A stretch of DNA of 51,106 nt from NCBI GenBank assembly GCA_027451445.1, contig DAIDJG010000240.1, forward strand, positions 1 through 51,106, read 5' to 3'. The notes under the pieces are model-generated. The model was not told the origin of the DNA, did no database searches, and saw nothing but the letters and a program-made list of their open reading frames with translations. This DNA comes from Singulisphaera sp. GTDB lineage: Bacteria > Planctomycetota > Planctomycetia > Isosphaerales > Isosphaeraceae. Of this stretch, positions 22,325 through 32,941 are shown piece by piece; within the stretch, counting starts at the first letter, position 1, and each line of letters opens with the position of its first letter. Position numbers and translations under genes: made by a program.

Positions 22325-25078
22325 TCAATCGGCCACGGTAAGAAGCCGGCCGCACTCTGACTGGGGACCCGGACGTGAGATCGTGATCCCAGTGTGTACT
22401 TCCACCGGCGCTGCTCCAGAACGCCGCAACAGCCAGTGTCCACACGGCACAAGCAGCGGCCGAACGAGCAACGCATCAACCGTGATCCCAATGACGAGGG
22501 CGAAGCCAAGCTGTCGGAGTGAGACCAGCGGGCTGAACAGGAACGACGCAAAACTGCACGCCGTGATCGCTGCCGCCGAAGTGATCAGGCCGCCCGTCTG
22601 ACCGATCGCCCGCTGAAGACCATTCCGCAGGCCGTGGCGAACCGTTTCCAGGTGGACCCGATCCATGAGGAACACGTTGTAGTCAACTCCCACCGCAACC
22701 AGCAGCACAAACAGGAAGTACGGCACCTTCCAATCGATCCCCTCAGCGCCCAGAACCGTGACGAAGAGGAGATGCGTTGTGCCCAGCGCGAAAGCGTACG
22801 TCAGGAGCATCGTGGCGACGAGATTGATGCCCGCTAGCGGGTCGCGGAGGGCAACCACGAGTACCAGAAAGACCCCGATCGGAATCACGAACCAGCTTTG
22901 AAACTGGTCGGCGCGTGTGAGCGCCCGGATGTCCGCGGCCTCAGCGTTGGGTCCCGTCGTTCGGACGGAGACTGCTGGTCCCTCGTTCGAGTCGAGGAAC
23001 TCACTCAATTTGTGCCGCAGGCCGACAACCTGGTCCATTGCCCCCGCCGAAAAGACCCGTTCCGCCTGGGTCACGTCGATGCGGGCCCGGTGACCGTCAG
23101 GAGTGATGTACGCCGCGAAGCTCCGTAAGAGCTCAGGGTGGTCCTTCACCGTTTCGGACGTCACGAGCAGGCGATCGAGGGCCTGACGTCCGACCGGATC
23201 GCGTAGGATTGAGGCCATCTCACGGTGTGCACGCCCGGCGCCTACCGCGATTTCTCCGGCACCCTCCGCGGCTCGCGTGAGGTCGCGGAGCATCGCGTCG
23301 CGCCCGTCGTCGGGGTTCGCCGTGCTCGGATCGGATGACGCCGAGGGCGCTGGCAACGCTGCTTTGGCCGGCGAGGTGACACCCGTGCCCAGGAATGCCA
23401 GCGACGCCTCCAGCAGTCCGGTCGCCGGGATCCTCGGCGCACGCATGCTCGCCTCTTTCGATGTCTTCGCGCCAGCATGCCCGGTCAGGTTGAGACCGGT
23501 CTTCTGTTCGAGCCAGAGCGCAGCCCTGAGCTTCCCCGCGCCTTCGTTGAGCCCCTTCTGAAGTGCGCTGGCTCCTTCGGACATCTGTGCGAAGCCGTCG
23601 TCGACAGCGGCCAGCCGCGACGCGATACGAGCCGGCCGCAGAGGCTCGGGGCTACCCAGCGGTTGCGTGGCCGAGCGCACTTCAACCAGCCGCTTGTGCC
23701 GCGCCAGCATTCGGCACACGTCGTCAATCAGCGCGATCCCTTCCGACTTTCGGAAATCCGCGTCCGACTCCAGGACCACAGCGAGTGGAGCGACGATGCC
23801 AGGGCCGAACTTGGCAGAGATCAATCGCAAGCCTCGAGCCGAAAGCGTTGGGCCCGGCAACTCCGTGACCACGTCCTGGACGAACGTTGTTCTCAGGCCG
23901 ACCACCGCTACAGGAGCCAGGACCAGGACCGTCAACGCCCAGGTGAGGGCGGGTCTCGTGAGCGCCTTGCGGCCGAAGCGATGCCAGAATCCGGACGAAG
24001 GCGCGGAGATACCGTCGAACGCCTGGGGACGATACTTCGCGAGCAGGACCAGCAACGCCGGGGTCAGGGTCAACGTCGCCACGAGCGTGATCACCAGACC
24101 AATCGCGACGCTCGGACCGGTGCTCGAAAAGAGCTTGAACCGGGTCGTTCCCATCAGTGAGAGGCCGATCACCACCGTTCCCGCGGTCGTCAGAAGGGCG
24201 ACCATCGCGCGTCGTAGCGTGTGCCGCATCGCGCCGGCGGGGTTGTGGGGATTCCAGTGCTCGCCGTACCGCCAGGAGATGAACAGGCAGAAGTCCGTCC
24301 CGCTGCCAAACAACAGGGCGACAAGGAAGAGCTCGACCAGCGGTGAAACCTCCCAGCCGGCCTTCGACACCATCCAGGCCAGGACCCCTCGGCTAATCAC
24401 GAGGCTGATCCCGATTGTCGTCAACGGCACCAACGCCAGCCACGCGGAGCGATAAACCACGAGGAGCACGCCCATCAGGAGGACGACCGTCGCCAGCGCA
24501 GCCCGATCGAGTGAGGTCTGGACATTCGCCATGTAGTCGCGGCCGATCACCGCGTCACCCGACCAGAGAACGTCCAGCCCCTTCGGCGCCACGATGCCGC
24601 CGGACTCCGTCTGTCGTTCGAGCCAGGCGACCGTCCGATGAGTGGCCGGGGCCACGAACGAAGCCGACAGCGGCACGACCAGAAGCTGCGTCGTTCCATC
24701 CTTGCTCAACAGCCGCTCGGCGATCTCCGGCGCGGAAGTCGGCCCGAGGACCCGAAGGACGGGCGGCGGTCGATCGCCCGATTCAAAGCGCCGGGCCAAT
24801 TGCTCGGCGTACGCATGGTCATCCGCACTCAGCCCGCTGGCCCGGTGGAGCGCGACCACGGCGGTCGCTTCCGACGACTGTTCGGGCCAGGCGTCCCGGA
24901 CGATCTCCGCAGCGAGGAGACTTTCAGCGTCGCGCGGAAGCAGCGACGCTTGCCCCTCGGCCGCAAGCCGCGTGAGGTCCGGAGCGAGTATGCCGACCAG
25001 GGCGGCGAGAAGCAGCCAGCAGACTACGACCCATCCCGGCCGCCGGCTCACCGTCGAGCGCAGGGCTTCCAATACCAT
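22325..25078 (-). CDS. MMPL/RND-superfamily transporter
   Basis: The protein has 917 residues from ATG 25078, with AGGAG 11 bases upstream; a GTG four codons earlier sits too close to that site. Two repeated units are each made of one membrane helix, a periplasmic domain and a five-helix bundle. The first bundle carries FGSGTDFCLFISWRY and the second AVGVDYNVFLMDRV, where the Gly-x-Asp-(Tyr/Phe) motif is the proton-relay element of MMPL proteins. The second outer domain has a long Ala/Gly/Ser-rich helical insert (about 475-650). Such proteins export lipids, hopanoids or siderophores; the cargo here is unknown. It lies 323 bases after the M48 gene on the same strand. Confidence 0.92.
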   Translation of the reverse strand: MVLEALRSTVSRRPGWVVVCWLLLAALVGILAPDLTRLAAEGQASLLPRDAESLLAAEIVRDAWPEQSSEATAVVALHRASGLSADDHAYAEQLARRFESGDRPPPVLRVLGPTSAPEIAERLLSKDGTTQLLVVPLSASFVAPATHRTVAWLERQTESGGIVAPKGLDVLWSGDAVIGRDYMANVQTSLDRAALATVVLLMGVLLVVYRSAWLALVPLTTIGISLVISRGVLAWMVSKAGWEVSPLVELFLVALLFGSGTDFCLFISWRYGEHWNPHNPAGAMRHTLRRAMVALLTTAGTVVIGLSLMGTTRFKLFSSTGPSVAIGLVITLVATLTLTPALLVLLAKYRPQAFDGISAPSSGFWHRFGRKALTRPALTWALTVLVLAPVAVVGLRTTFVQDVVTELPGPTLSARGLRLISAKFGPGIVAPLAVVLESDADFRKSEGIALIDDVCRMLARHKRLVEVRSATQPLGSPEPLRPARIASRLAAVDDGFAQMSEGASALQKGLNEGAGKLRAALWLEQKTGLNLTGHAGAKTSKEASMRAPRIPATGLLEASLAFLGTGVTSPAKAALPAPSASSDPSTANPDDGRDAMLRDLTRAAEGAGEIAVGAGRAHREMASILRDPVGRQALDRLLVTSETVKDHPELLRSFAAYITPDGHRARIDVTQAERVFSAGAMDQVVGLRHKLSEFLDSNEGPAVSVRTTGPNAEAADIRALTRADQFQSWFVIPIGVFLVLVVALRDPLAGINLVATMLLTYAFALGTTHLLFVTVLGAEGIDWKVPYFLFVLLVAVGVDYNVFLMDRVHLETVRHGLRNGLQRAIGQTGGLITSAAAITACSFASFLFSPLVSLRQLGFALVIGITVDALLVRPLLVPCGHWLLRRSGAAPVEVHTGITISRPGPQSECGRLLTVAD

Positions 25079-25401
25079 CTTGGGGTTCACTCCTGGGGAT
25101 TCCTATGCGGAAACTCACTCCCCTCGACCGAGCGGAGGGGCAGGGGAGGTCGGGTGTTTTTGTGCGGCAAGGATGTCAGGTCGGAAAACCGCGAGGACTT
25201 CCGAACGGCGGGGCAGGATGGCATGGTTGCGAGGAAGGTCGCAGCCCGGTGCACTTAATCTCTTACGGATTATCGGCAAAATTGAGACGAGGCTGGCCTG
25301 GTCAGGGTGGGAGATTCTAGACTCGAACCGTAACCATTTCCCGAACTCAAAGGTAGCTCGGAGGTTAGGACAACATTTGGGGACCGCCGAACCATTTGGC
25401 G
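25079..25401. other. Intergenic stretch with short G/C-run inverted repeats
   Basis: I see no gene. Near 25118-25148, CTCCCCTC and GAGGGGCAGGGGAG can pair in two alternative short hairpins, resembling the G/C-run repeats at 31.8 and 34.7 kb. The stretch separates the ubiquitin-like locus from the MMPL gene and may carry the latter's promoter. Confidence 0.45.
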
Positions 25402-26676
25402 TCATTCACGGAACAGCATACCATACACAAGAGGGGCCCCCGTTGTCCAGGGATGATAGCTGTTACAAAAGTCGATGCGCTCGCCGATGCTTGGGTGTGT
25501 GGATCGAAACGTTTTGAACAGTAGCCCTGGCCGGGGGTTGCTGAGGTTCTGTTCCTGGAGCTTCACGAACGCGAGGGCTCCGGAGTGGTTCGAGTGCGTC
25601 AGCTCCAGAGCGAAGCGATCGGCCTCAAATTCTTGGTGGCGGCTGTAGAAGTTGACGACGGGCATCAGGGCGAGCGTCGCCACGTGCATGAGCATCATGA
25701 TCAAGGGCACCGACGCCACGTCCGAGAGCCGGTTGAACCCGAAGCGCGACGTCCGCGCCATCAGCCAGTGGCCTGCGCGATCGACGAAGAAGAGGCTGGC
25801 GAGGACGATGAATGACGACAGAAAGACGCTGCGCACGACGTGCCCGAGCGCATAGTGGCCCATTTCATGTCCCATCACAAACAGCAGTTCTCGCTCGTTC
25901 AACTTCTTGATCAGCGTGTCCCAGAGCACGATCCGTTTGGTGCCGAGAAACCCGGTCACGTAGGCGTTGACCGTTTTCGTATCGCGGCTCTTGTCGACTT
26001 CGAACACGCGGCTGCCCTCGATCCCCGCTCGTGCTGCCAGGTCCAGGATCTTGGACTCCAGCGCCTTGTCCTGCATCGGTCCGAACTTGTTGAACAACGG
26101 GTCGACGAAAGTCGGTTTGACCAGCATCACGCCGAACAGGAAGGGGATGATCAACAGCGTGAGGTAGAGCCACCACCGCTTCGGCGAGCGTGCGATCAGG
26201 GCAAACGGGATCCACGCAAAAAGCACCCCGGTCACCGTCGAGACGGCCAGCGCCTTGAGCGAGTTTCCGAACCAGCGCCCCAGCGACTGGTTCGACAATC
26301 CGTAGGCATGCGGCCGGACGTATCCCATGTAGTAGTGCATGGGGAAATCGAGCAGAAACATGATCCCAAGATAAAGAACCACATACAACGCAATGACGAA
26401 GAACCACGGCCTTCCCTTGCGTGTCACCGCGTTGCGCATTTTCGCCGATGCACCCGTAAAGAGCAGCAGCGCCGGGATTCCCAGGTCCAGAATATGATTG
26501 GCGACCCAGATCCAATTACCAGTCACGTAGAAACGGATCGCGAGGGGCGACGCTGCAGGGACCGCAACCGGCTGCGATTCGTCCGGCGCGGGTTCGTCGG
26601 TGTCTTTGGCGAACGCCGCGAGCGGGAAGGTCAGGAGGACGACGAGCAGGGCGGCGAGAGGTGAGAACCGTGGCAT
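25402..26676 (-). CDS. M48 family (Ste24/HtpX-like) membrane zinc metalloprotease
   Basis: The protein has 424 residues from ATG 26676, where a signal-peptide-like start (MPRFSPLAALLVVLLTFPLA) begins; in-frame TTG codons at 26703-26706 are less likely. Several membrane helices (about 55-75, 92-110, 140-165, 168-186) precede the catalytic motif VMGHEMGHYALGH (His270, Glu271, His274). The third Zn ligand is in QEFEADRFAL (Glu351). The layout is that of Ste24-type CAAX proteases with an N-terminal membrane part. It lies 68 bases after the JAB gene on the same strand, so it is probably in the ubiquitin-like operon, where it might degrade or process membrane substrates. Confidence 0.92.
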   Translation of the reverse strand: MPRFSPLAALLVVLLTFPLAAFAKDTDEPAPDESQPVAVPAASPLAIRFYVTGNWIWVANHILDLGIPALLLFTGASAKMRNAVTRKGRPWFFVIALYVVLYLGIMFLLDFPMHYYMGYVRPHAYGLSNQSLGRWFGNSLKALAVSTVTGVLFAWIPFALIARSPKRWWLYLTLLIIPFLFGVMLVKPTFVDPLFNKFGPMQDKALESKILDLAARAGIEGSRVFEVDKSRDTKTVNAYVTGFLGTKRIVLWDTLIKKLNERELLFVMGHEMGHYALGHVVRSVFLSSFIVLASLFFVDRAGHWLMARTSRFGFNRLSDVASVPLIMMLMHVATLALMPVVNFYSRHQEFEADRFALELTHSNHSGALAFVKLQEQNLSNPRPGLLFKTFRSTHPSIGERIDFCNSYHPWTTGAPLVYGMLFRE

Positions 26677-26744
26677 GTCATGAATTCCGCTCTTTAAGCC
26701 CAACAAAGCTCCGGTAGCCCTCGGGCTCGGTGGACGTTCGCGGG

Positions 26745-28211
26745 TCAGGTGATTCGTATCGGCGCGGGGCCTTCGGGGTTCTCAACCGGAGGGGGCTCAG
26801 CACTCACCGGTTCTTTTGTGTTCGCGAACGTGACGATCAAGCCCAAAACCAGCAAGAGGCTCACCACCCAACCCGCCGCAGCGACCCACCAGGTGCGGTT
26901 GTACTTCTCGAGCAATTCGAGCGCTCGCCGGCCCTCCGTCGAGTCGAGCGCGACACTGAGCTGCTGGATCTTGGCCGCTTGCGTTTCGTTCTCACTCTCG
27001 AGATTGCCAACGCGTTTCCGGTAGCTGGCGACGTCCTTGGCGTCCTGCTCATTGTCCTCAGCTTTCTTCCGGAGCGCTTTGACGTCCGTCTCGAGCTTCT
27101 TCATTTCTGTGGTCATTCCCTTCGCGTCCCTGGCGAGTAGCTCGTTGACGTACCTCTGCTCTGCGAGCGTTTTCTCAGCCACTTCGCGCTCCGACACCAC
27201 CTTCTTGTACTGGTCGAGGAACCGGTCGGGCCCATCCTTGATGTCGGCCAGCTTGGTGTTCAGTATCAATTGGTTCGCCGCGGAGTTTTGATTCACGCCC
27301 TTCGTGATTTCCTGAAGCGCAAGCGTCTGCTCCTGCATTTGCTTGTAAAAACTGTTGAGCCACAGGACAGCGGCGACCGCGAGCACGCCGAGCATTGCGC
27401 CGAAGACGCCGAAGAGCGCGGCGGCCTGGATTCCATAGGCATTCATGGGAACATGCTGTTGAGCAGGTCGGGTGAGCATGGCAATCAGCTCGGCCTCCAA
27501 GCGGGGAGAGAGGCCGCTGCCGCCTCCGTCGGTGTTGGGGATGCCTTCCAGATCGTTCACCAGTCGTGAGAGCGCGATCCGTTCGCTCCGGTCGGCCGAG
27601 AGAAAGAAGCCGCCAAGCGCGTCGACACGTCCCTCGCGCCACTGAAAGAACCCGCGCGTCTGGCGGATCGGATCAACAACGTAAGCCACCTGGAGCGGTT
27701 GCGCGAAGAAGTTCCGGTGGATGAACAGATCGTGGCTCGACAGGAAGATCCCGAAATCGGGATGCGTGTGGTACCAGCCCACGATATCGAGCTCGGGATA
27801 GAGCCGGTCGCGCTCGCGGGTGATCTCCTCCCAGGAGTCGTGCGTATAGGTGAAACTTGCCTGTGTGTTTTCGTAGTGCTTCGCTTCGAGCGACTTCGTT
27901 ACCCACACAAAGGGCTCGCCCGTCTCCTCGTCGAGGCATTCCTTCCCGAGCAGGATGCCGCCGAGCTCGACCGACGTATCGCGCAGGGCGTGGCGCTCGA
28001 TGGCGTCGGCCGATTGTCGATCGAGGAAAATGGGGAGATCGAGCGGCCCTGGTACTTCGTACGCGATGCAGGCGAAGCGCCGATCGCGATCGGGCCGGCA
28101 CCGTCGTTCCGGCTCGCGGACCTTGACCTCGCCGAAGACCATCTCCTCGTCGCTCAAGTCAGGTCGCCCCCATCGTCCCCACGATTCGCCGTTCTTCGAG
28201 ATGTTCGCCAA
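26745..28211 (-). CDS. JAB/JAMM isopeptidase with two TM segments and a coiled coil
   Basis: The 488-residue protein has an N-terminal MPN/JAMM Zn-peptidase domain (about 55-205) with the complete motif: Glu82 in VELGGILLG and HTHPDFGIFLSSHD (His148, His150, Ser158, Asp161). This is the motif of Rpn11/CSN5/AMSH deubiquitinases. A membrane helix follows (262-286), then a charged coiled coil (about 335-425), a second membrane helix (441-462) and a Pro-rich tail. With the protease in the cytoplasm the coiled coil would lie outside. The likely role is removal or maturation of the neighbouring Ubl at the membrane. The start is uncertain: TTG 28211 or ATG 28142. Confidence 0.92.
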   Translation of the reverse strand: MANISKNGESWGRWGRPDLSDEEMVFGEVKVREPERRCRPDRDRRFACIAYEVPGPLDLPIFLDRQSADAIERHALRDTSVELGGILLGKECLDEETGEPFVWVTKSLEAKHYENTQASFTYTHDSWEEITRERDRLYPELDIVGWYHTHPDFGIFLSSHDLFIHRNFFAQPLQVAYVVDPIRQTRGFFQWREGRVDALGGFFLSADRSERIALSRLVNDLEGIPNTDGGGSGLSPRLEAELIAMLTRPAQQHVPMNAYGIQAAALFGVFGAMLGVLAVAAVLWLNSFYKQMQEQTLALQEITKGVNQNSAANQLILNTKLADIKDGPDRFLDQYKKVVSEREVAEKTLAEQRYVNELLARDAKGMTTEMKKLETDVKALRKKAEDNEQDAKDVASYRKRVGNLESENETQAAKIQQLSVALDSTEGRRALELLEKYNRTWWVAAAGWVVSLLLVLGLIVTFANTKEPVSAEPPPVENPEGPAPIRIT

Positions 28212-28311
28212 CGGCGGGCCAGGCTTGGACTCTCTTTCAGATTACCCGTGAAGTCAGCCCATCGCCCGGTCTTTTTCGCGCCGATCCAGCCAAATCGATG
28301 ACGCCCAGGCG

Positions 28312-29547
28312 TCATACCCCGAGCCCCCACCCGCGTTCGCGGTCTGCACGGTCCGCGGCAAGCAGGAAGAATCCCGATTCCACAGCGCCATCGACGCGCA
28401 CGATGTCAAAAGGCGGGACACCGACCTCCGCCAGCGTTCGAGACGACAGCGGCGACGGATCTTCGATCACGTGAAGCGTCTCCGGGAGACCCGCCTCGCC
28501 GCACGACGCGCAAACCGCGTCCGCCATCCGCACGCGGCTCCTCGGCCGCATCATCTCGGAGCGGCCGCCGCATTTCGGACAGACGATGGCTGTCACCAGA
28601 TCGCGTTCCAGCGCAAGGCTCAACGGACCTTCGAGCGTGTCGCGTACCGCGTCGAAAAGCTGTCCCACCGTGTGACGGTGGCCGATCGGCAATTCCGTCG
28701 GCTCGGGATAGGTCTCGTGGCTCAGGCACTCGTCGCGGCGCGGAAGCTTCGTTGTGTAAAACTGATTCGTCACGCCGTTGAACACCAGCGCCGAGCCCGC
28801 CGCGACCGGCAGCCCGTGAATCAGCTTGAGCGCCTCCTGCACCTCGAGCGCCGCCATCATCGAGGCGATCGTCGGGGCCGTCGGCACCTTCCCTTCCAGG
28901 ATCTGATCGCGGCGGAGCAGGGGGCAGGAATAGCGAAGATTCAGGAGCTGATAGTCCCGCTCCGTCATCGCGCATTCGTAACACGCAGAGTCGGGCGGCT
29001 GGAATACCTTCACGACCCCCTGGATCTCCTGGATGCCCGCGTCTACCCACGGCGTGCCGGTTTTCCAGCACTGACGGTTCACCCAGAGCCGCGCCTCGCG
29101 ATTGTCGAGGCAGCCGATGACCACATCGACTTCCGCGAAGAGCCCAAGGCCGACGTCGTGGATGACGTCGCCGTGCATCGGAATGACAGCGACGTCCGGG
29201 TTTATTTCGCGCGTCCTCCGCGCGGCGACGACGGCCTTCGACTGGCCGCCGTCCTCGGCGCGGAAGAGGACGGACCGGGAGAGGTTTGACGTCTCGATGT
29301 TATCGAGGTCGATCACGTAGATCGTGCCGACACCGAGGAGGGCGAGGTTCTTCAACACCTCGTTACCGAGCGCCCCCGCACCGACGACCAGGACACGAGC
29401 CGCGTTGAGCCGCTCCTGGCGCCACCAGGGGATGAGGCGCAGGCGGCCGTAACGATCGTCTTCGTCGATGATGAGGGCCCGTTCCTCGGGGGTCTCTGTG
29501 TTGCCGGAACCCTCGTCGAGGAACGTCAAGGGGGACTCGTCAGTCAA
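28312..29547 (-). CDS. E1-like ThiF-family adenylyltransferase with C-terminal zinc ribbon
   Basis: The protein has 411 residues from TTG 29547; this start overlaps the E2 stop by 8 bases and has GAGGAGA 9 bases upstream. The Rossmann core carries VVGAGALG (56-61), IDLDNIETSNLSRS (Asp80, Asp82, Asn88, Arg91), Lys104 in QSKA and CLDNR (Asp148), the ATP and adenylation residues of E1/MoeB/ThiF. Cys208 in RYSCPLL is the best candidate thioester Cys, ahead of a crossover-like loop and PTIASMMAALEVQEALK. CYEC (189-192) may bind Zn. After residue 285 come a possible E2-presenting segment and a CPKC...CASC ribbon (323-349). It would activate the Ubl and pass it to the adjacent E2. Confidence 0.92.
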   Translation of the reverse strand: MTDESPLTFLDEGSGNTETPEERALIIDEDDRYGRLRLIPWWRQERLNAARVLVVGAGALGNEVLKNLALLGVGTIYVIDLDNIETSNLSRSVLFRAEDGGQSKAVVAARRTREINPDVAVIPMHGDVIHDVGLGLFAEVDVVIGCLDNREARLWVNRQCWKTGTPWVDAGIQEIQGVVKVFQPPDSACYECAMTERDYQLLNLRYSCPLLRRDQILEGKVPTAPTIASMMAALEVQEALKLIHGLPVAAGSALVFNGVTNQFYTTKLPRRDECLSHETYPEPTELPIGHRHTVGQLFDAVRDTLEGPLSLALERDLVTAIVCPKCGGRSEMMRPRSRVRMADAVCASCGEAGLPETLHVIEDPSPLSSRTLAEVGVPPFDIVRVDGAVESGFFLLAADRADRERGWGLGV

Positions 29548-30343
29548 GGAAGACGATCTCCTCGGCGGGCGCGGGGCGAGGCCGTACAGGGCGCAGTTCG
29601 ACCGGGTTCTCCTCAACCTCGAGGATGATCAGTCCATCATCCGCTGAGGGTGTATCGTCGACTTCCCAGACTGGCTGGTTGTGGGAGCGCTCGCGGTCCG
29701 AATCGGGCGCACGGCTCTTGACGAACTCCCGGTACTTCGCCGCCTTCGCGCCTGTCTCTTTTGGTGGAGCAGGGGGGGCCGCGGGAGCGACCTCGGCGGG
29801 CCCCGTTTTCGGCGGGTCAACCCGTCCGAGCGCCGCACGGAGATCGCGTAAGGGTCGCGTGTCCAGCGGGAAGAGGAAGCTCTTCTGGTTAGCCACCCAG
29901 AGCGCGGCTTCGCGATTGTAGGGGCTGCGAATGTCGTAGTTGTGGAACCGCGCCATGTCCCAGAGCATACCGCATAGCTCGTCGAGGTTGAGGCTGGGAA
30001 CCCAGTGTGTCCCGTACCCGCCAAGGCAAACCATGCCAATCTCAGAGATGTTCGGATGGTAAATGGGCGTGAGCCAGCGGATCTCGGGCATCGTCCGCGG
30101 ATACGATGCGCCAAGCTTGATCTCGACTTCGTGATGAGCCCGCACCGCGACCGGTCCGCGTTCGCGGGCGAGGCTCTTGCCGCGGAATTCGATGATGTAG
30201 TGCTGAGGAGGAAGGCGGCCGTCGCCTTTCTGCACGCGGAACTTCAGCACAGAGCTTTCCGCCATCAAGCGCTCGAGGGCCGAGTGATCGGACCGCAAGC
30301 GCCGGATGCGCGGGGATTCATAGGTGGCCATCGCGCGACCCAT
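29540..30343 (-). CDS. E2 ubiquitin-conjugating-enzyme-like protein (UBC fold)
   Basis: The protein has 267 residues from ATG 30343 (AGGTGA 10 bases upstream; ATG 30331 is also possible). The UBC core at about residues 20-155 has SYPRTMPEIRW, then YHPNIS (His96-Pro97-Asn98) and MVCL with Cys106, then HWVPSLNLDEL. The spacing from Asn98 to Cys106 is eight, as in eukaryotic E2s such as the UbcH5 group, and the W-x-P after the Cys is also shared. Asn98 is the oxyanion-hole residue, Cys106 the thioester Cys. A Pro/Ala-rich and acidic tail (175-267) is specific to this protein. Its gene is 11 bases after the Ubl gene and overlaps the E1 gene. Confidence 0.93.
   Translation of the reverse strand: MGRAMATYESPRIRRLRSDHSALERLMAESSVLKFRVQKGDGRLPPQHYIIEFRGKSLARERGPVAVRAHHEVEIKLGASYPRTMPEIRWLTPIYHPNISEIGMVCLGGYGTHWVPSLNLDELCGMLWDMARFHNYDIRSPYNREAALWVANQKSFLFPLDTRPLRDLRAALGRVDPPKTGPAEVAPAAPPAPPKETGAKAAKYREFVKSRAPDSDRERSHNQPVWEVDDTPSADDGLIILEVEENPVELRPVRPRPAPAEEIVFLD
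29557..29563 (-). promoter_or_regulatory. Ribosome binding site that fixes the E1 TTG start
   Basis: GAGGAGA on the minus strand lies 9 bases before TTG 29547. It sits inside the E2 coding end, so E2 and E1 are translationally coupled. The longer frame to 29616 would start within E2 and lacks such a site. Confidence 0.7.
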
Positions 30344-30353
30344 CCCTTTCGCA

Positions 30354-30653
30354 TCACCTTTGACCGGCCACAACCTCGGGGTAAACGATCAGGTGATCGC
30401 CATCACGCACACCCGCTTCGACGAGCGTACTGCTCTCGATGAGCCGCCTGCCGCCTTCTTTGTGGTCTAGCGAGTAGCTCATCGGCTGGCCGTCAGGACT
30501 GGTGACGGGCAAGTTCATCTTGGTGATGATGTTCGGGAGAATCCGGCTGACCGGCACACTGTAGGCGATAACCGCCTTGACCGACTTGGCCCCCGTCTGA
30601 TCCAAGAACGTGACCTGGATCCCCGTAGGATCGGCATTTCCGCCGTAAGACAT
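30354..30653 (-). CDS. Ubiquitin-like protein (YukD/EsaB-like beta-grasp)
   Basis: The protein has 99 residues from ATG 30653, chosen because GAGGAGG lies 9 bases upstream; an extension of seven residues is possible. A beta-hairpin (GIQVTFLDQTGAKSVKAVIA) leads into a helix (SRILPNIITKMNL), then strands and a final DGDHLIVYPEV strand. This is the order of a beta-grasp Ubl, closest in feel to YukD-like proteins. It ends Val-Val-Ala-Gly-Gln-Arg with no Gly-Gly. Cleavage after Ala-Gly by the JAB peptidase would expose a Gly terminus, but this is inference. Being first in the Ubl-E2-E1 gene cluster, it is the likely modifier. Confidence 0.85.
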   Translation of the reverse strand: MSYGGNADPTGIQVTFLDQTGAKSVKAVIAYSVPVSRILPNIITKMNLPVTSPDGQPMSYSLDHKEGGRRLIESSTLVEAGVRDGDHLIVYPEVVAGQR

Positions 30654-30662
30654 GTCAGGATA

Positions 30663-30669
30663 CCTCCTC
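30663..30669 (-). promoter_or_regulatory. Strong ribosome binding site of the Ubl gene
   Basis: GAGGAGG on the minus strand, 9 bases before ATG 30653, decides this start over the upstream in-frame codon and suggests high translation of the modifier. Confidence 0.75.
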
Positions 30670-30728
30670 AGCATCCCATTCGCTGGTCGCGGGCCAATAT
30701 TGAACGGCTTGCCCGAAATTCTTCACGG

Positions 30729-30759
30729 ATTATTACGAGAGCTGCATCCATCAAGATAA
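30729..30759 (-). promoter_or_regulatory. Possible promoter of the Ubl-E2-E1 operon
   Basis: On the minus strand TTATCT (30754-30759) and TAATAAT (30729-30735) are about 18 bases apart, in the 172-base gap between the RING gene and the Ubl gene. The -10 box is good and the -35 box is poor, so this is tentative. Confidence 0.35.
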
Positions 30760-30825
30760 CCACCCTGGGGCGTCACCGAAATAGGTAAGACGCTGAATCG
30801 TGTGCGGGACTGGCCTCCCTTGGCA

Positions 30826-31662
30826 TCAGGCAGGCACGCTTTTCTTCCCCTGGCAGCCGTAGATCGAGCACGACCCCACGAATTCCCAGCAATCGACGTG
30901 ATGCGGCGTCCTGCACGACGCGCAGCGCACCGAAGGGCCCTCAATGGTCTCGCCACACACTTTACAAACCGGCAAGCCGGCATCCTCGGTCGTGGCCGCA
31001 CCCGCGGCGACGATGGCGATACCTTCCGTCAAGCGCGCAGCGACACCCAGTTGCAGGCCGTCATGAATCACCAGGGCTTCTCGCACCGCGTGTGCCAGCG
31101 CGTCGGTATTCAATCCAAGGTTCCGATCCACCTGCACCAGAAGCCGTTCGGGGTTGATCGAGATGAGAATCCCCCGGGGTGGGCCCAACCGCTCCAGATT
31201 GCCGATCGCCCAGCGCACCGTCGGGGAGAGGAACTCGCGTGCCATCTCCGAGTCATTGGCCTGCACCACGAACGCACGGTCAAACTCCTGATCGCCGACG
31301 CCGATCAGGCGCGTACCTTTCGGCGGCTGCGCCGGCGCGGGCCGGCCGGAGGGCGCGAGCTCCATGCGGAAAGGGAGGCCCTGCCGGAAACGAGCGACTA
31401 CGCGGGTCCTCGGCCCGAGGTTCTGCCCCGCCACGTTGGGCGCCAACCCAACGCGCACATTCGAACCGTTGTACGAGAAGCTGACCGTGGGTGGGTCGGA
31501 GAGCCCCCTGCTCTCGTATTTCCCTTGATAGCGGAGGGCCAACTGGCGGTAGGCCTTGAAGCGGGCTCCTGTGAGCCAGGAGCCGGCCGCGGCGCCGAGC
31601 CGGATGATGAGGTAGACAATGAGGGCGAGTGCGCCCAGGACGAGCCATCCCACGATTTCCAT
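30826..31662 (-). CDS. Membrane-anchored RING-like zinc finger protein (candidate E3)
   Basis: The 278-residue protein starts with one membrane helix (about 5-22) followed by Arg/Lys-rich residues, which predicts a cytoplasmic C-terminus. Residues 55-215 form an unrecognised alpha/beta domain. The C-terminal finger has eight ligands, Cys233, 236, 247, 250, His255, Cys258, 265 and 270, in the order C4HC3 of treble-clef RING/PHD-type fingers. This layout fits the prokaryotic RING finger family 1 known from Ubl-E1-E2-JAB neighbourhoods. It lies 172 bases upstream of the Ubl gene on the same strand and probably recruits the E2 at the membrane. AGGGAG stands 8 bases before the ATG. Confidence 0.88.
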   Translation of the reverse strand: MEIVGWLVLGALALIVYLIIRLGAAAGSWLTGARFKAYRQLALRYQGKYESRGLSDPPTVSFSYNGSNVRVGLAPNVAGQNLGPRTRVVARFRQGLPFRMELAPSGRPAPAQPPKGTRLIGVGDQEFDRAFVVQANDSEMAREFLSPTVRWAIGNLERLGPPRGILISINPERLLVQVDRNLGLNTDALAHAVREALVIHDGLQLGVAARLTEGIAIVAAGAATTEDAGLPVCKVCGETIEGPSVRCASCRTPHHVDCWEFVGSCSIYGCQGKKSVPA

Positions 31663-31826
31663 CCCCTCGCTCCCTGTCTCACCACACGGCCGCTCTTCTT
31701 CAGTCTACGGCTGTCGGACCCCGGAAGGCAACGAAGCGCCACCTTCCGAGATCCGCGTTGAGTCAGTAAGATCCGTTGAGGGGTCGAGACGCATTCGGAT
31801 CTGCGACAACGTCTGTGGTGGCGCGA

Positions 31827-31966
31827 ACCCCTCACCCCGCCGCTGCGCGGCGCCCCTCTCCCGCAAGGGGAGAGGGGCGTTTTCGCGTTTGAGCGTCGCA
31901 ACGGTGAAAGAAACACCTCTCCCCTTGTGGGAGAGGTCGGCCCTCAACGAGGGCCGGGTGAGGGGT
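31827..31966. repeat. Composite palindromic intergenic repeat (three hairpins)
   Basis: Outer arms ACCCCTCACCC (31827-31837) and GGGTGAGGGGT (31956-31966) enclose two strong hairpins. The first, at 31851-31879, has a 12-bp stem followed by GTTTTCG and would act as a + strand terminator. The second, at 31915-31937, is ACCTCTCCC with GGGAGAGGT, followed by a GGCCCTC/GAGGGCC stem. G/C-run structures like this are common dispersed intergenic repeats. Nothing else is seen between 31663 and 32035 except the ribosome binding site of the EamA gene. Confidence 0.75.
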
Positions 31967-32035
31967 GCGGGAGAGACCGTCAGCCCGCAACTCGCGTCGA
32001 TCCAATGGCCTGATGGGATAGGGTGAGGACGGGAC

Positions 32036-32941
32036 TTGGAACAGCCAGAGTGTTCGTCAGCCGCCTTTGGGCGGCGTTGTGTACTCACGGCGGCAGGACT
32101 GTGGAGTCTCAGCGGTGTTATCACAAAGCTGCTGGCGCTCGATGGCCTGACCATCGCGTTTTACCGGGGGCTGTTCGCCGGGCTTGTGCTGCTGCCGGTG
32201 GTTCCCTGGAAGCGCTGGCGGTTTCATCGGGGCTTGATCCCGCTTGGCCTGATTTTCGGCGCCATGACCGCGGTGTACATCGGCTCGATCAAGCGCACGA
32301 CCGCCGCGAACGCCATCTTTTTGCAATACACCTCCGTGTTCTGGACCGTCCCCCTGAGCGCCTGGCTGCTCGGCGAACGGCCCGATCGCCGCTCATTGGC
32401 CGGGATCGCGCTGGCGACTCTCGGCATCAGTGCCATCGTCGGTTACGGCTACGACGGGCGGTCCGGTGAGTGGGTGGGGATCGCGATGGGCCTGGCGAGC
32501 GGCCTGGGCTATGCCGCGGTCACCGTTTCGATGCGCGGACTGCGCGACTTCGACCCCCTCTGGCTCAGTGCTGTGGCGAACTTGACCGGCGCTCTGGCGC
32601 TCGGGGCGTTCATTGCCGGCGCTTCCGCCGCGACTCACAGCACGCTTCCCGCACCACCCACGTGGCCACAGCTCGCCCTCCTGGTCGGTTTCGGCGCGAT
32701 TCAAATGGCCATTCCGTATGCCCTCTTCGCGCGCGGGCTGCGCACGATCGGAGCGCCTGAGGCTGCGCTCATCGCGCTGCTGGAGCCGGTTCTAAACCCG
32801 ATCTGGGTGTTCCTCTTCCTCCAGGAGCGGCCCACGAAGGCGACGCTGATCGGTGGTGCCTTCCTGCTTTCGGGAGTGGCCGTCCGCTACTGGCCGGCGC
32901 GACGGATCGCCTCGACCGAGGAGCGCGGAGTGCCCGTTTGA
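32036..32941 (+). CDS. EamA/DMT-family transporter
   Basis: The 301-residue protein has ten hydrophobic helices in two EamA repeats, with GLWSLSGVITKLLALDGLTIAFYR at the start and the second-repeat end IALLEPVLNPIWVFLFLQERP, a hallmark of the drug/metabolite transporter superfamily. These carriers export or import small metabolites; the substrate is unknown. The start is TTG 32036 with GTGAGGA 8 bases upstream; no good ATG lies within the first helix. It is followed by the metallopeptidase gene 90 bases downstream. Confidence 0.9.
   Translation: MEQPECSSAAFGRRCVLTAAGLWSLSGVITKLLALDGLTIAFYRGLFAGLVLLPVVPWKRWRFHRGLIPLGLIFGAMTAVYIGSIKRTTAANAIFLQYTSVFWTVPLSAWLLGERPDRRSLAGIALATLGISAIVGYGYDGRSGEWVGIAMGLASGLGYAAVTVSMRGLRDFDPLWLSAVANLTGALALGAFIAGASAATHSTLPAPPTWPQLALLVGFGAIQMAIPYALFARGLRTIGAPEAALIALLEPVLNPIWVFLFLQERPTKATLIGGAFLLSGVAVRYWPARRIASTEERGVPV

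Follow-up and report, generated by a model that had tools for sequence, protein, structure and literature searches.

We identified, on the minus strand of a 51,106-nucleotide stretch of DNA from a Singulisphaera sp. (the window, which is contig 240 of the 622 contigs of a 10.9 Mb genome), a cluster of genes for a RING-like protein, a ubiquitin-like protein (Ubl), an E2, an E1 and a JAMM peptidase. Taken together, these genes probably encode a working cycle of Ubl attachment and removal on the inner side of the cytoplasmic membrane, most likely used to regulate membrane proteins or to control their quality. Close relatives in the named collections are Isosphaeraceae of the Planctomycetota (among them Singulisphaera, Aquisphaera, Paludisphaera and Tautonia). 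A preliminary description had read the five genes as a ubiquitin conjugation and deconjugation locus; all five are confirmed at the stated place and strand, and the reading withstood all the tests that were run. The genes are transcribed in the order RING, Ubl, E2, E1, JAMM, followed by an M48 protease and an MMPL transporter. The Ubl and E2 genes are 10 bases apart and the E1 start lies 8 bases within the 3' end of the E2 gene.

Pfam assigned the Ubl to the YukD family (PF08817; 57.3 bits against a cut-off of 27), the E2 to UQ_con (46.3 against 27), the E1 to ThiF (194.6 against 28.1) and the peptidase to JAB (39.3 against 22.5). In the related loci surveyed, the HPN motif and the catalytic Cys are present in 74 E2s, and a strict motif around the candidate catalytic Cys is found in 66 of 69 E1s, with two of the remaining three retaining the Cys as RYSCPQL. 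The JAMM motif of the window is intact (Glu82, H148-x-H-x7-S-x2-D161) and the catalytic residues are complete in every uninterrupted JAB surveyed, of both JAMM types, the sole broken case being the interrupted frame of locus L159. The preliminary description had, beforehand, let its reading depend on the conservation of E2 Cys106, E1 Cys208 and the JAMM residues; in the longest open reading frames the two cysteines are numbered 116 and 231, and all of these positions are conserved among the homologues.

The C terminus of the Ubl looks like that of a conjugated protein whose tail can be removed. The motif YPE(V/I)VAG with its terminal Gly was found in 72 of 74 Ubl homologues, as VYPEVVAG in 23 from Isosphaeraceae and as YPEIVAG in the 49 others; 36 of the 72 end at this Gly and 36 carry tails of 1 to 21 residues of varied sequence. 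The two exceptions are L130, where the frame runs on, and L175, which ends in VAR. The terminus is Ala-Gly in all 72 readable Ubls, and not the Di-Gly of Caldiarchaeum-type ubiquitin. Trimming before activation predicts just this combination, in which the body is conserved, the Gly invariant and the tail free to vary, and such trimming has been demonstrated for an archaeal pro-ubiquitin (PMC5654768). A profile of the Ubl found no relative among the PDB sequences at E 0.001. The nearest Pfam family is YukD, and YukD of Bacillus subtilis is not conjugated (PMC1779556), which would suit an unconjugated role as a sulfur carrier like ThiS or MoaD, or as part of type VII secretion. We regard such a role as highly improbable, given the full set of E2, RING and JAMM with conserved active sites, the ubiquitin-fold domain (UFD) on the E1, and the invariant Gly followed by a variable tail.

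The best PDB matches of the E1 include UBA7, UBA1, the SUMO E1 and ThiF, the candidate catalytic Cys lying outside the aligned stretches. For its C-terminal domain, Pfam gave zinc-ribbon and unrelated matches only, all below cut-off, and was therefore replaced by structure. The AlphaFold2 model of the last 135 residues (mean predicted local distance difference test score, pLDDT, of 94) was matched best by 14 chains, all of them from NEDD8 or SUMO E1s and aligned over the UFD (Z 6.1-7.2, with 5.0 for the row below). It is because of this uniform ranking that the domain is assigned as a UFD, the Z values being only moderate. As in UBA3 and UBA2 of the NEDD8 and SUMO E1s, the ThiF domain is followed by the UFD-like domain and the candidate catalytic Cys comes after a CxxC; unlike these enzymes, the E1 of the window is one chain whose UFD contains a zinc ribbon, and it has no separate catalytic-cysteine domain that we could see. 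With its single ThiF domain, it probably acts as a homodimer.

The E2s end in tails with a mean length of 68 amino acids, rich in Pro, Glu, Ala and Asp, in which acidic-hydrophobic motifs resembling SUMO-interacting motifs (SIM-like motifs) recur. Counted with a pattern that was composed after inspection of the tails, so that the comparison with shuffled tails measures enrichment and is not an independent prediction, there are 2.2 such motifs per tail versus 0.10 in shuffles, and 71 of 73 tails end in one, versus 0.8% of shuffled tails. By the same count, the tails of a second E2 found in Pirellulaceae have 2.4 versus 0.05. These motifs may bind the Ubl non-covalently. The E1 N terminus was also considered as a site of a SIM-like motif, but one was found in only 10 of 66 E1s under the pattern used and is not claimed. 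In another planctomycete family, two E2-like proteins with HPN and without the catalytic Cys (L067:8865-9665 in G037 and L068:8171-8887 in G055) carry a C-terminal CxxC pair arranged like a zinc ribbon.

A single membrane helix lies at the N terminus of the RING protein, with basic residues directly after it, and by the positive-inside rule this suggests that the remainder of the protein is cytoplasmic. Its middle domain, modelled with AlphaFold2 from an alignment of 45 sequences (mean pLDDT 92), is predicted to have the fold of TtfA, the partner of MmpL3, and of CCDC47, a protein of the multipass translocon of the endoplasmic reticulum (ER). In a Foldseek search the sole match with E < 0.001 was TtfA (6t84, E 1.2e-6). 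VIA-align gave Z 14.5 over 160 residues at 3.9 A for the same entry, then 13.4, 10.5 and 10.4 for chains of three ribosome-translocon structures, with the next row at 7.8. The tool output consists of entry titles only; we take those chains (7tm3_4, 9i78_4 and 6w6l_7) to be CCDC47. To our knowledge, neither TtfA nor CCDC47 has a RING domain. TtfA, anchored by its N terminus and otherwise cytoplasmic, forms a complex with MmpL3 (PMC6593404), and the RING protein likewise combines an N-terminal helix with this fold and a predicted cytoplasmic C terminus.

The eight zinc ligands of a binuclear treble clef are found in all 59 of the longer RING homologues, with the exact pattern in 42 and a Cys in place of H255 in 17. 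This protein could still bind zinc at the membrane without being an E3, conjugation depending on E1 and E2 only and the RING protein serving as a receptor or assembly factor. Its C4HC3 arrangement with CxxC-x4-HxxC spacing is nearer to PHD or ZZ fingers, and the structural matches of the RING part are modest, and weak taken alone (BIRC7 RING Z 5.0, p62 ZZ 4.7). The preliminary description had also held that the five genes should be neighbours in related genomes, and in this respect the gene order is kept across Isosphaeraceae and Pirellulaceae, but the RING gene lies elsewhere, unlinked from the Ubl locus, in 11 Isosphaeraceae genomes examined. We nevertheless find it unlikely that the protein is not an E3. 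The C4HC3 form is the usual one among prokaryotic RINGs (PMC11354881), homologous RINGs of Pirellulaceae exceed the Prok-RING_1 (PF14446) cut-off with 33.9-44.4 bits, Pirellulaceae clusters end in one to three RINGs, and RING and Ubl occur together in the family. Close orthologs of both are present in 35 of 45 family genomes and of neither in four, with the Ubl alone in two and the RING alone in four (Fisher p = 0.006, relatedness uncorrected), a link between the RING and the pathway that does not depend on their genes being adjacent. The six mismatched genomes have a completeness of 77-92%. The relocated RING genes were considered as a clue to substrates and dropped, as their neighbours in the five readable loci vary from genome to genome, except for an EamA gene in one.

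A single-sequence search with the E2 gave matches in 33 of 59 relatives, nearly all in the family to which the bacterium itself belongs. The Ubl profile was positive in 38 of the 45 family genomes, in 37 as a close ortholog (E < 1e-49, mostly 80-96% identical); six of these 37 also carry a distant second Ubl, which G437 has alone, so that seven of the 45 have it. Identity to the window is 87-94% for the Ubl versus 73-85% for elongation factor P (EF-P), the Ubl being higher in seven of seven comparable loci. The tree places the Isosphaeraceae E1s in one group with support of 100/99. Across the phylum, 30 of 392 sampled genomes were positive, and the system is therefore patchy beyond Isosphaeraceae. 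A scan of contigs gave 80 loci, from Isosphaeraceae and otherwise mostly Pirellulaceae, plus metagenome-assembled genomes (MAGs) labelled Wallbacteria, Riflebacteria and Abditibacteriales; an E2 is present in 77 of them, an E1 in 74, a JAB in 68 and a RING in 49, some loci ending at contig edges. Among the named species that carry the system is Singulisphaera acidiphila DSM 18658.

The Isosphaeraceae order is (RING)-Ubl-E2-E1-JAMM, and many Pirellulaceae have either Ubl-E2-E1-JAMM-RING or an expanded form, Ubl-E2-short JAMM-E1-membrane JAMM-second E2-RING, with one to three RINGs. The second E2 of these clusters (UQ_con 39.8 bits) mostly keeps HPN and lacks the Cys; Cys-less E2 variants are known in eukaryotes, and the second E2 is analogous to them.

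The locus could instead serve antiphage defence, in which phage or defence proteins would be tagged as by CBASS Cap2/Cap3, Bil or Bub. The bacterial Ubl-conjugation systems described in the literature found act in defence (PMC10097602), Bub is an immune operon (PMC13373217), and the E1 matches the PADLOC E1-E2 and BilD models distantly, the JAMM weakly. However, the Ubl, E2 and RING have no PADLOC match, and a known effector such as a nuclease or cyclase was not recognised in the neighbouring genes examined. The flanks of the E1, E2 and JAMM genes hold the RING gene, an EamA transporter, the M48 protease, the MMPL transporter and RNase III, and nothing corresponding to a CBASS CD-NTase with its effector. 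A defence island was rejected, since PADLOC found no system and no relatives of the Ubl were found in the phage, plasmid and viral-contig collections searched. We favour a role outside defence because the system is near-universal in the family, has one E1 group, keeps its synteny with RNase III and EF-P genes in several loci and is absent from those collections; defence is in our judgement improbable.

Two neighbours recur downstream of the JAMM gene in Isosphaeraceae: an M48 protease gene lies within 1.3 kb in at least 16 of 25 loci, and an MMPL gene within 2 kb in at least 10 loci besides the window, including the divergent L058 and L050, both counts being lower bounds because some loci do not extend far enough. 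Perhaps the adjoining MMPL transporter is itself the main substrate, with the TtfA-like RING protein as its regulator; the partnership of TtfA with MmpL3 and this recurrent adjacency would suggest so. This special case of membrane-protein regulation seems doubtful to us, as the MMPL gene is found in about half of the Isosphaeraceae loci that have room for it and was not found near the Pirellulaceae clusters, and the CCDC47 match suits a broader range of clients.

Sequence and structure prediction give the components, their active sites, the Ubl tail signature, the E1 UFD, the membrane anchors, the co-occurrence and the grouping of the E1s; from these we infer the following cycle. The JAMM peptidase would trim the Ubl past Gly97, and the E1 would adenylate Gly97 and then carry the Ubl on Cys231, its UFD aiding transfer to Cys116 of the E2, whose SIM-like motifs may hold the Ubl non-covalently. 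The membrane-anchored RING protein would join substrates with the charged E2, its TtfA/CCDC47-like domain touching integral membrane proteins or the machinery that inserts them, and the membrane-bound JAMM peptidase would later take the Ubl off. Such a cycle would most likely regulate membrane proteins or control their quality, and the adjoining M48 protease may take part in this in Isosphaeraceae. The role in envelope quality control that the preliminary description proposed gains indirect support from the membrane anchors of the RING and JAMM proteins, the TtfA/CCDC47-like domain and the M48 and MMPL neighbours conserved in many, not all, relatives. More tentatively, this could be a housekeeping pathway analogous to ER quality control, in which the CCDC47/TtfA-type domain of a RING ligase reaches multipass clients such as MMPL-type transporters or insertion-site proteins, with a SIM-tailed E2 (joined in Pirellulaceae by its Cys-less partner) and removal by the membrane JAMM.

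Several observations weigh against this proposal. The RING region of the window scores 27.9 bits with Prok-RING_1, just below the cut-off of 29.1, and its gene can be unlinked, as described above. The likeness to TtfA and CCDC47 is one of fold only, with an identity of 6-14%, and the Z values of 6-7 for the E1 UFD are below the level that the tool deems safe alone. Neither M48 nor MMPL was found near the Pirellulaceae loci, and their adjacency is not universal in Isosphaeraceae. The four genomes that have neither the Ubl nor the RING are all those of one genus (g6), which lives without the system. As to an outlet by degradation, a proteasome was considered and rejected, the only protein of the proteasome family (PF00227) found in the genome being HslV. 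The coordinates of the features are collected in Table 1.

Table 1. Positions in the window of the Ubl cluster, its functional residues and the two genes downstream
Feature	Coordinates	Strand	Details
RING-like protein, 278 aa	30826..31662	-	Membrane helix, residues 1-31; TtfA/CCDC47-like domain, 32-213; C4HC3 RING-like domain, 233-270
Zinc-ligand core of RING-like domain	30853..30966	-	C233, C236, C247, C250, H255, C258, C265, C270
TtfA/CCDC47-like domain of RING protein	31024..31569	-	AlphaFold2 and structural matches
YukD-type Ubl, 99 aa	30354..30653	-	ATG at 30653; ends ...YPEVVAG-QR; Pfam YukD and alignment
Ubl Gly97, predicted conjugation residue	30363..30365	-	Followed by Gln-Arg tail
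E2-like conjugating enzyme with Pro/acidic tail	29540..30343	-	ATG at 30343; UQ_con and alignment
E2 catalytic Cys116 (longest-frame numbering)	30026..30028	-	Eight residues past HPN motif
E2 C-terminal SIM-like motif EEIVFLD (acidic-hydrophobic)	29543..29563	-	Terminal motif shared across E2 tails
E1-like enzyme	28312..29547	-	TTG start at 29547; ThiF adenylation domain and C-terminal UFD with zinc-ribbon insert
E1 candidate catalytic Cys231 (reading-frame numbering), RYSCPLL	28924..28926	-	Motif conservation
E1 C-terminal UFD-like domain, CxxC...CxxC	28315..28719	-	AlphaFold2 and structural matches
JAMM peptidase (JAB1/MPN domain)	26745..28211	-	Pfam JAB; two membrane helices, residues 258-289 and 440-467, flanking a coiled-coil-like stretch
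JAMM motif HTHPDFGIFLSSHD	27729..27770	-	Glu82 at 27966-27968
Ste24/HtpX-type M48 membrane metalloprotease	25402..26706	-	38 bases 3' of JAMM gene
MMPL-family RND transporter	22325..25090	-	Pfam

Some further observations were made in the window and in the related loci. Between the RING and EamA genes, positions 31705-32154 hold a reading frame of low complexity as well as a terminator-like stem-loop (31915-31937), and may be a repeat element. A second, distant Ubl system was found in L063:1471-9329 (G024) and L066:8504-16270 (G003), where the distant Ubl is accompanied by an E1, a membrane JAMM, an FHA membrane protein, a RING, a protein that fuses RING, membrane and Trypsin_2 parts, and an E2 ending in a zinc ribbon; the distant Ubl of two genomes ends in TAG and then a tail. 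Loci L130, L149 and L168, from MAGs labelled Wallbacteria, Planctomycetota and Riflebacteria, have the order E1-Ubl-E2-short JAMM and their E1s cluster together (98/97); these may be misbinned contigs or result from transfer. In L166 (1166-1912) and 28 further Pirellulaceae loci, a conserved protein of about 250 amino acids is encoded on the opposite strand, about 0.5-3 kb upstream of the Ubl, and had no Pfam match over cut-off.

The kind of system is already known. Operons of this sort were predicted in 2011 by Burroughs, Iyer and Aravind, who reportedly described in them a YukD-like Ubl and a UFD-bearing E1. The preliminary description had cited these authors, correctly in substance: PMC4197634, citing Burroughs et al. 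2011, names Planctomycetes, with Actinobacteria and Acidobacteria, as carrying operons related to that of Candidatus Caldiarchaeum subterraneum. The predicted bacterial Ubl-E1-E2-RING-JAB operons share with the window locus the gene set and the prokaryotic RING finger, and the window has each of the expected features: a C-terminal Gly on the Ubl, free or to be exposed by trimming, HPN and Cys in the E2, ThiF, candidate Cys and UFD in the E1, and E...HxHx7SxxD in the JAMM. The Caldiarchaeum operon groups ubiquitin, E1, E2, a small RING and an Rpn11-like JAMM in the same way, and in vitro its JAMM trims pro-ubiquitin, its E1, E2 and RING act as a cascade, and deconjugation takes place (PMC5654768). 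Its terminus is Di-Gly and its RING small, whereas the window has Ala-Gly, a membrane-anchored RING and JAMM, and a YukD-type Ubl. BilABCD likewise joins Ubl, E1, E2 and JAMM in one operon, and its JAMM exposes a C-terminal Gly; however, BilA has two ubiquitin-like domains, BilD two adenylation domains, and none of the four genes encodes a RING (PMC11354881), whereas the Ubl of the window has a single YukD match in 99 amino acids and the E1 a single ThiF match. What we regard as new is the membrane-linked RING architecture, the Ubl tail signature and the expanded Pirellulaceae form; the co-occurrence of Ubl and RING, the TtfA/CCDC47-like domain and the SIM-like motifs likewise come from the present analysis. 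No experimental work on a planctomycete system was found in the literature searched, whose coverage leaves out most subscription journals and all preprints.

In the literature that we found, the experimentally studied bacterial Ubl-conjugation systems act in antiphage defence. If our proposal is true, the set described here, nearly universal in one bacterial family, would amount to a household form of ubiquitin pathway in which the Ubl is better conserved than EF-P and the RING is held at the membrane, and this would allow a direct test of the origin of E3-dependent, membrane-linked ubiquitin chemistry.

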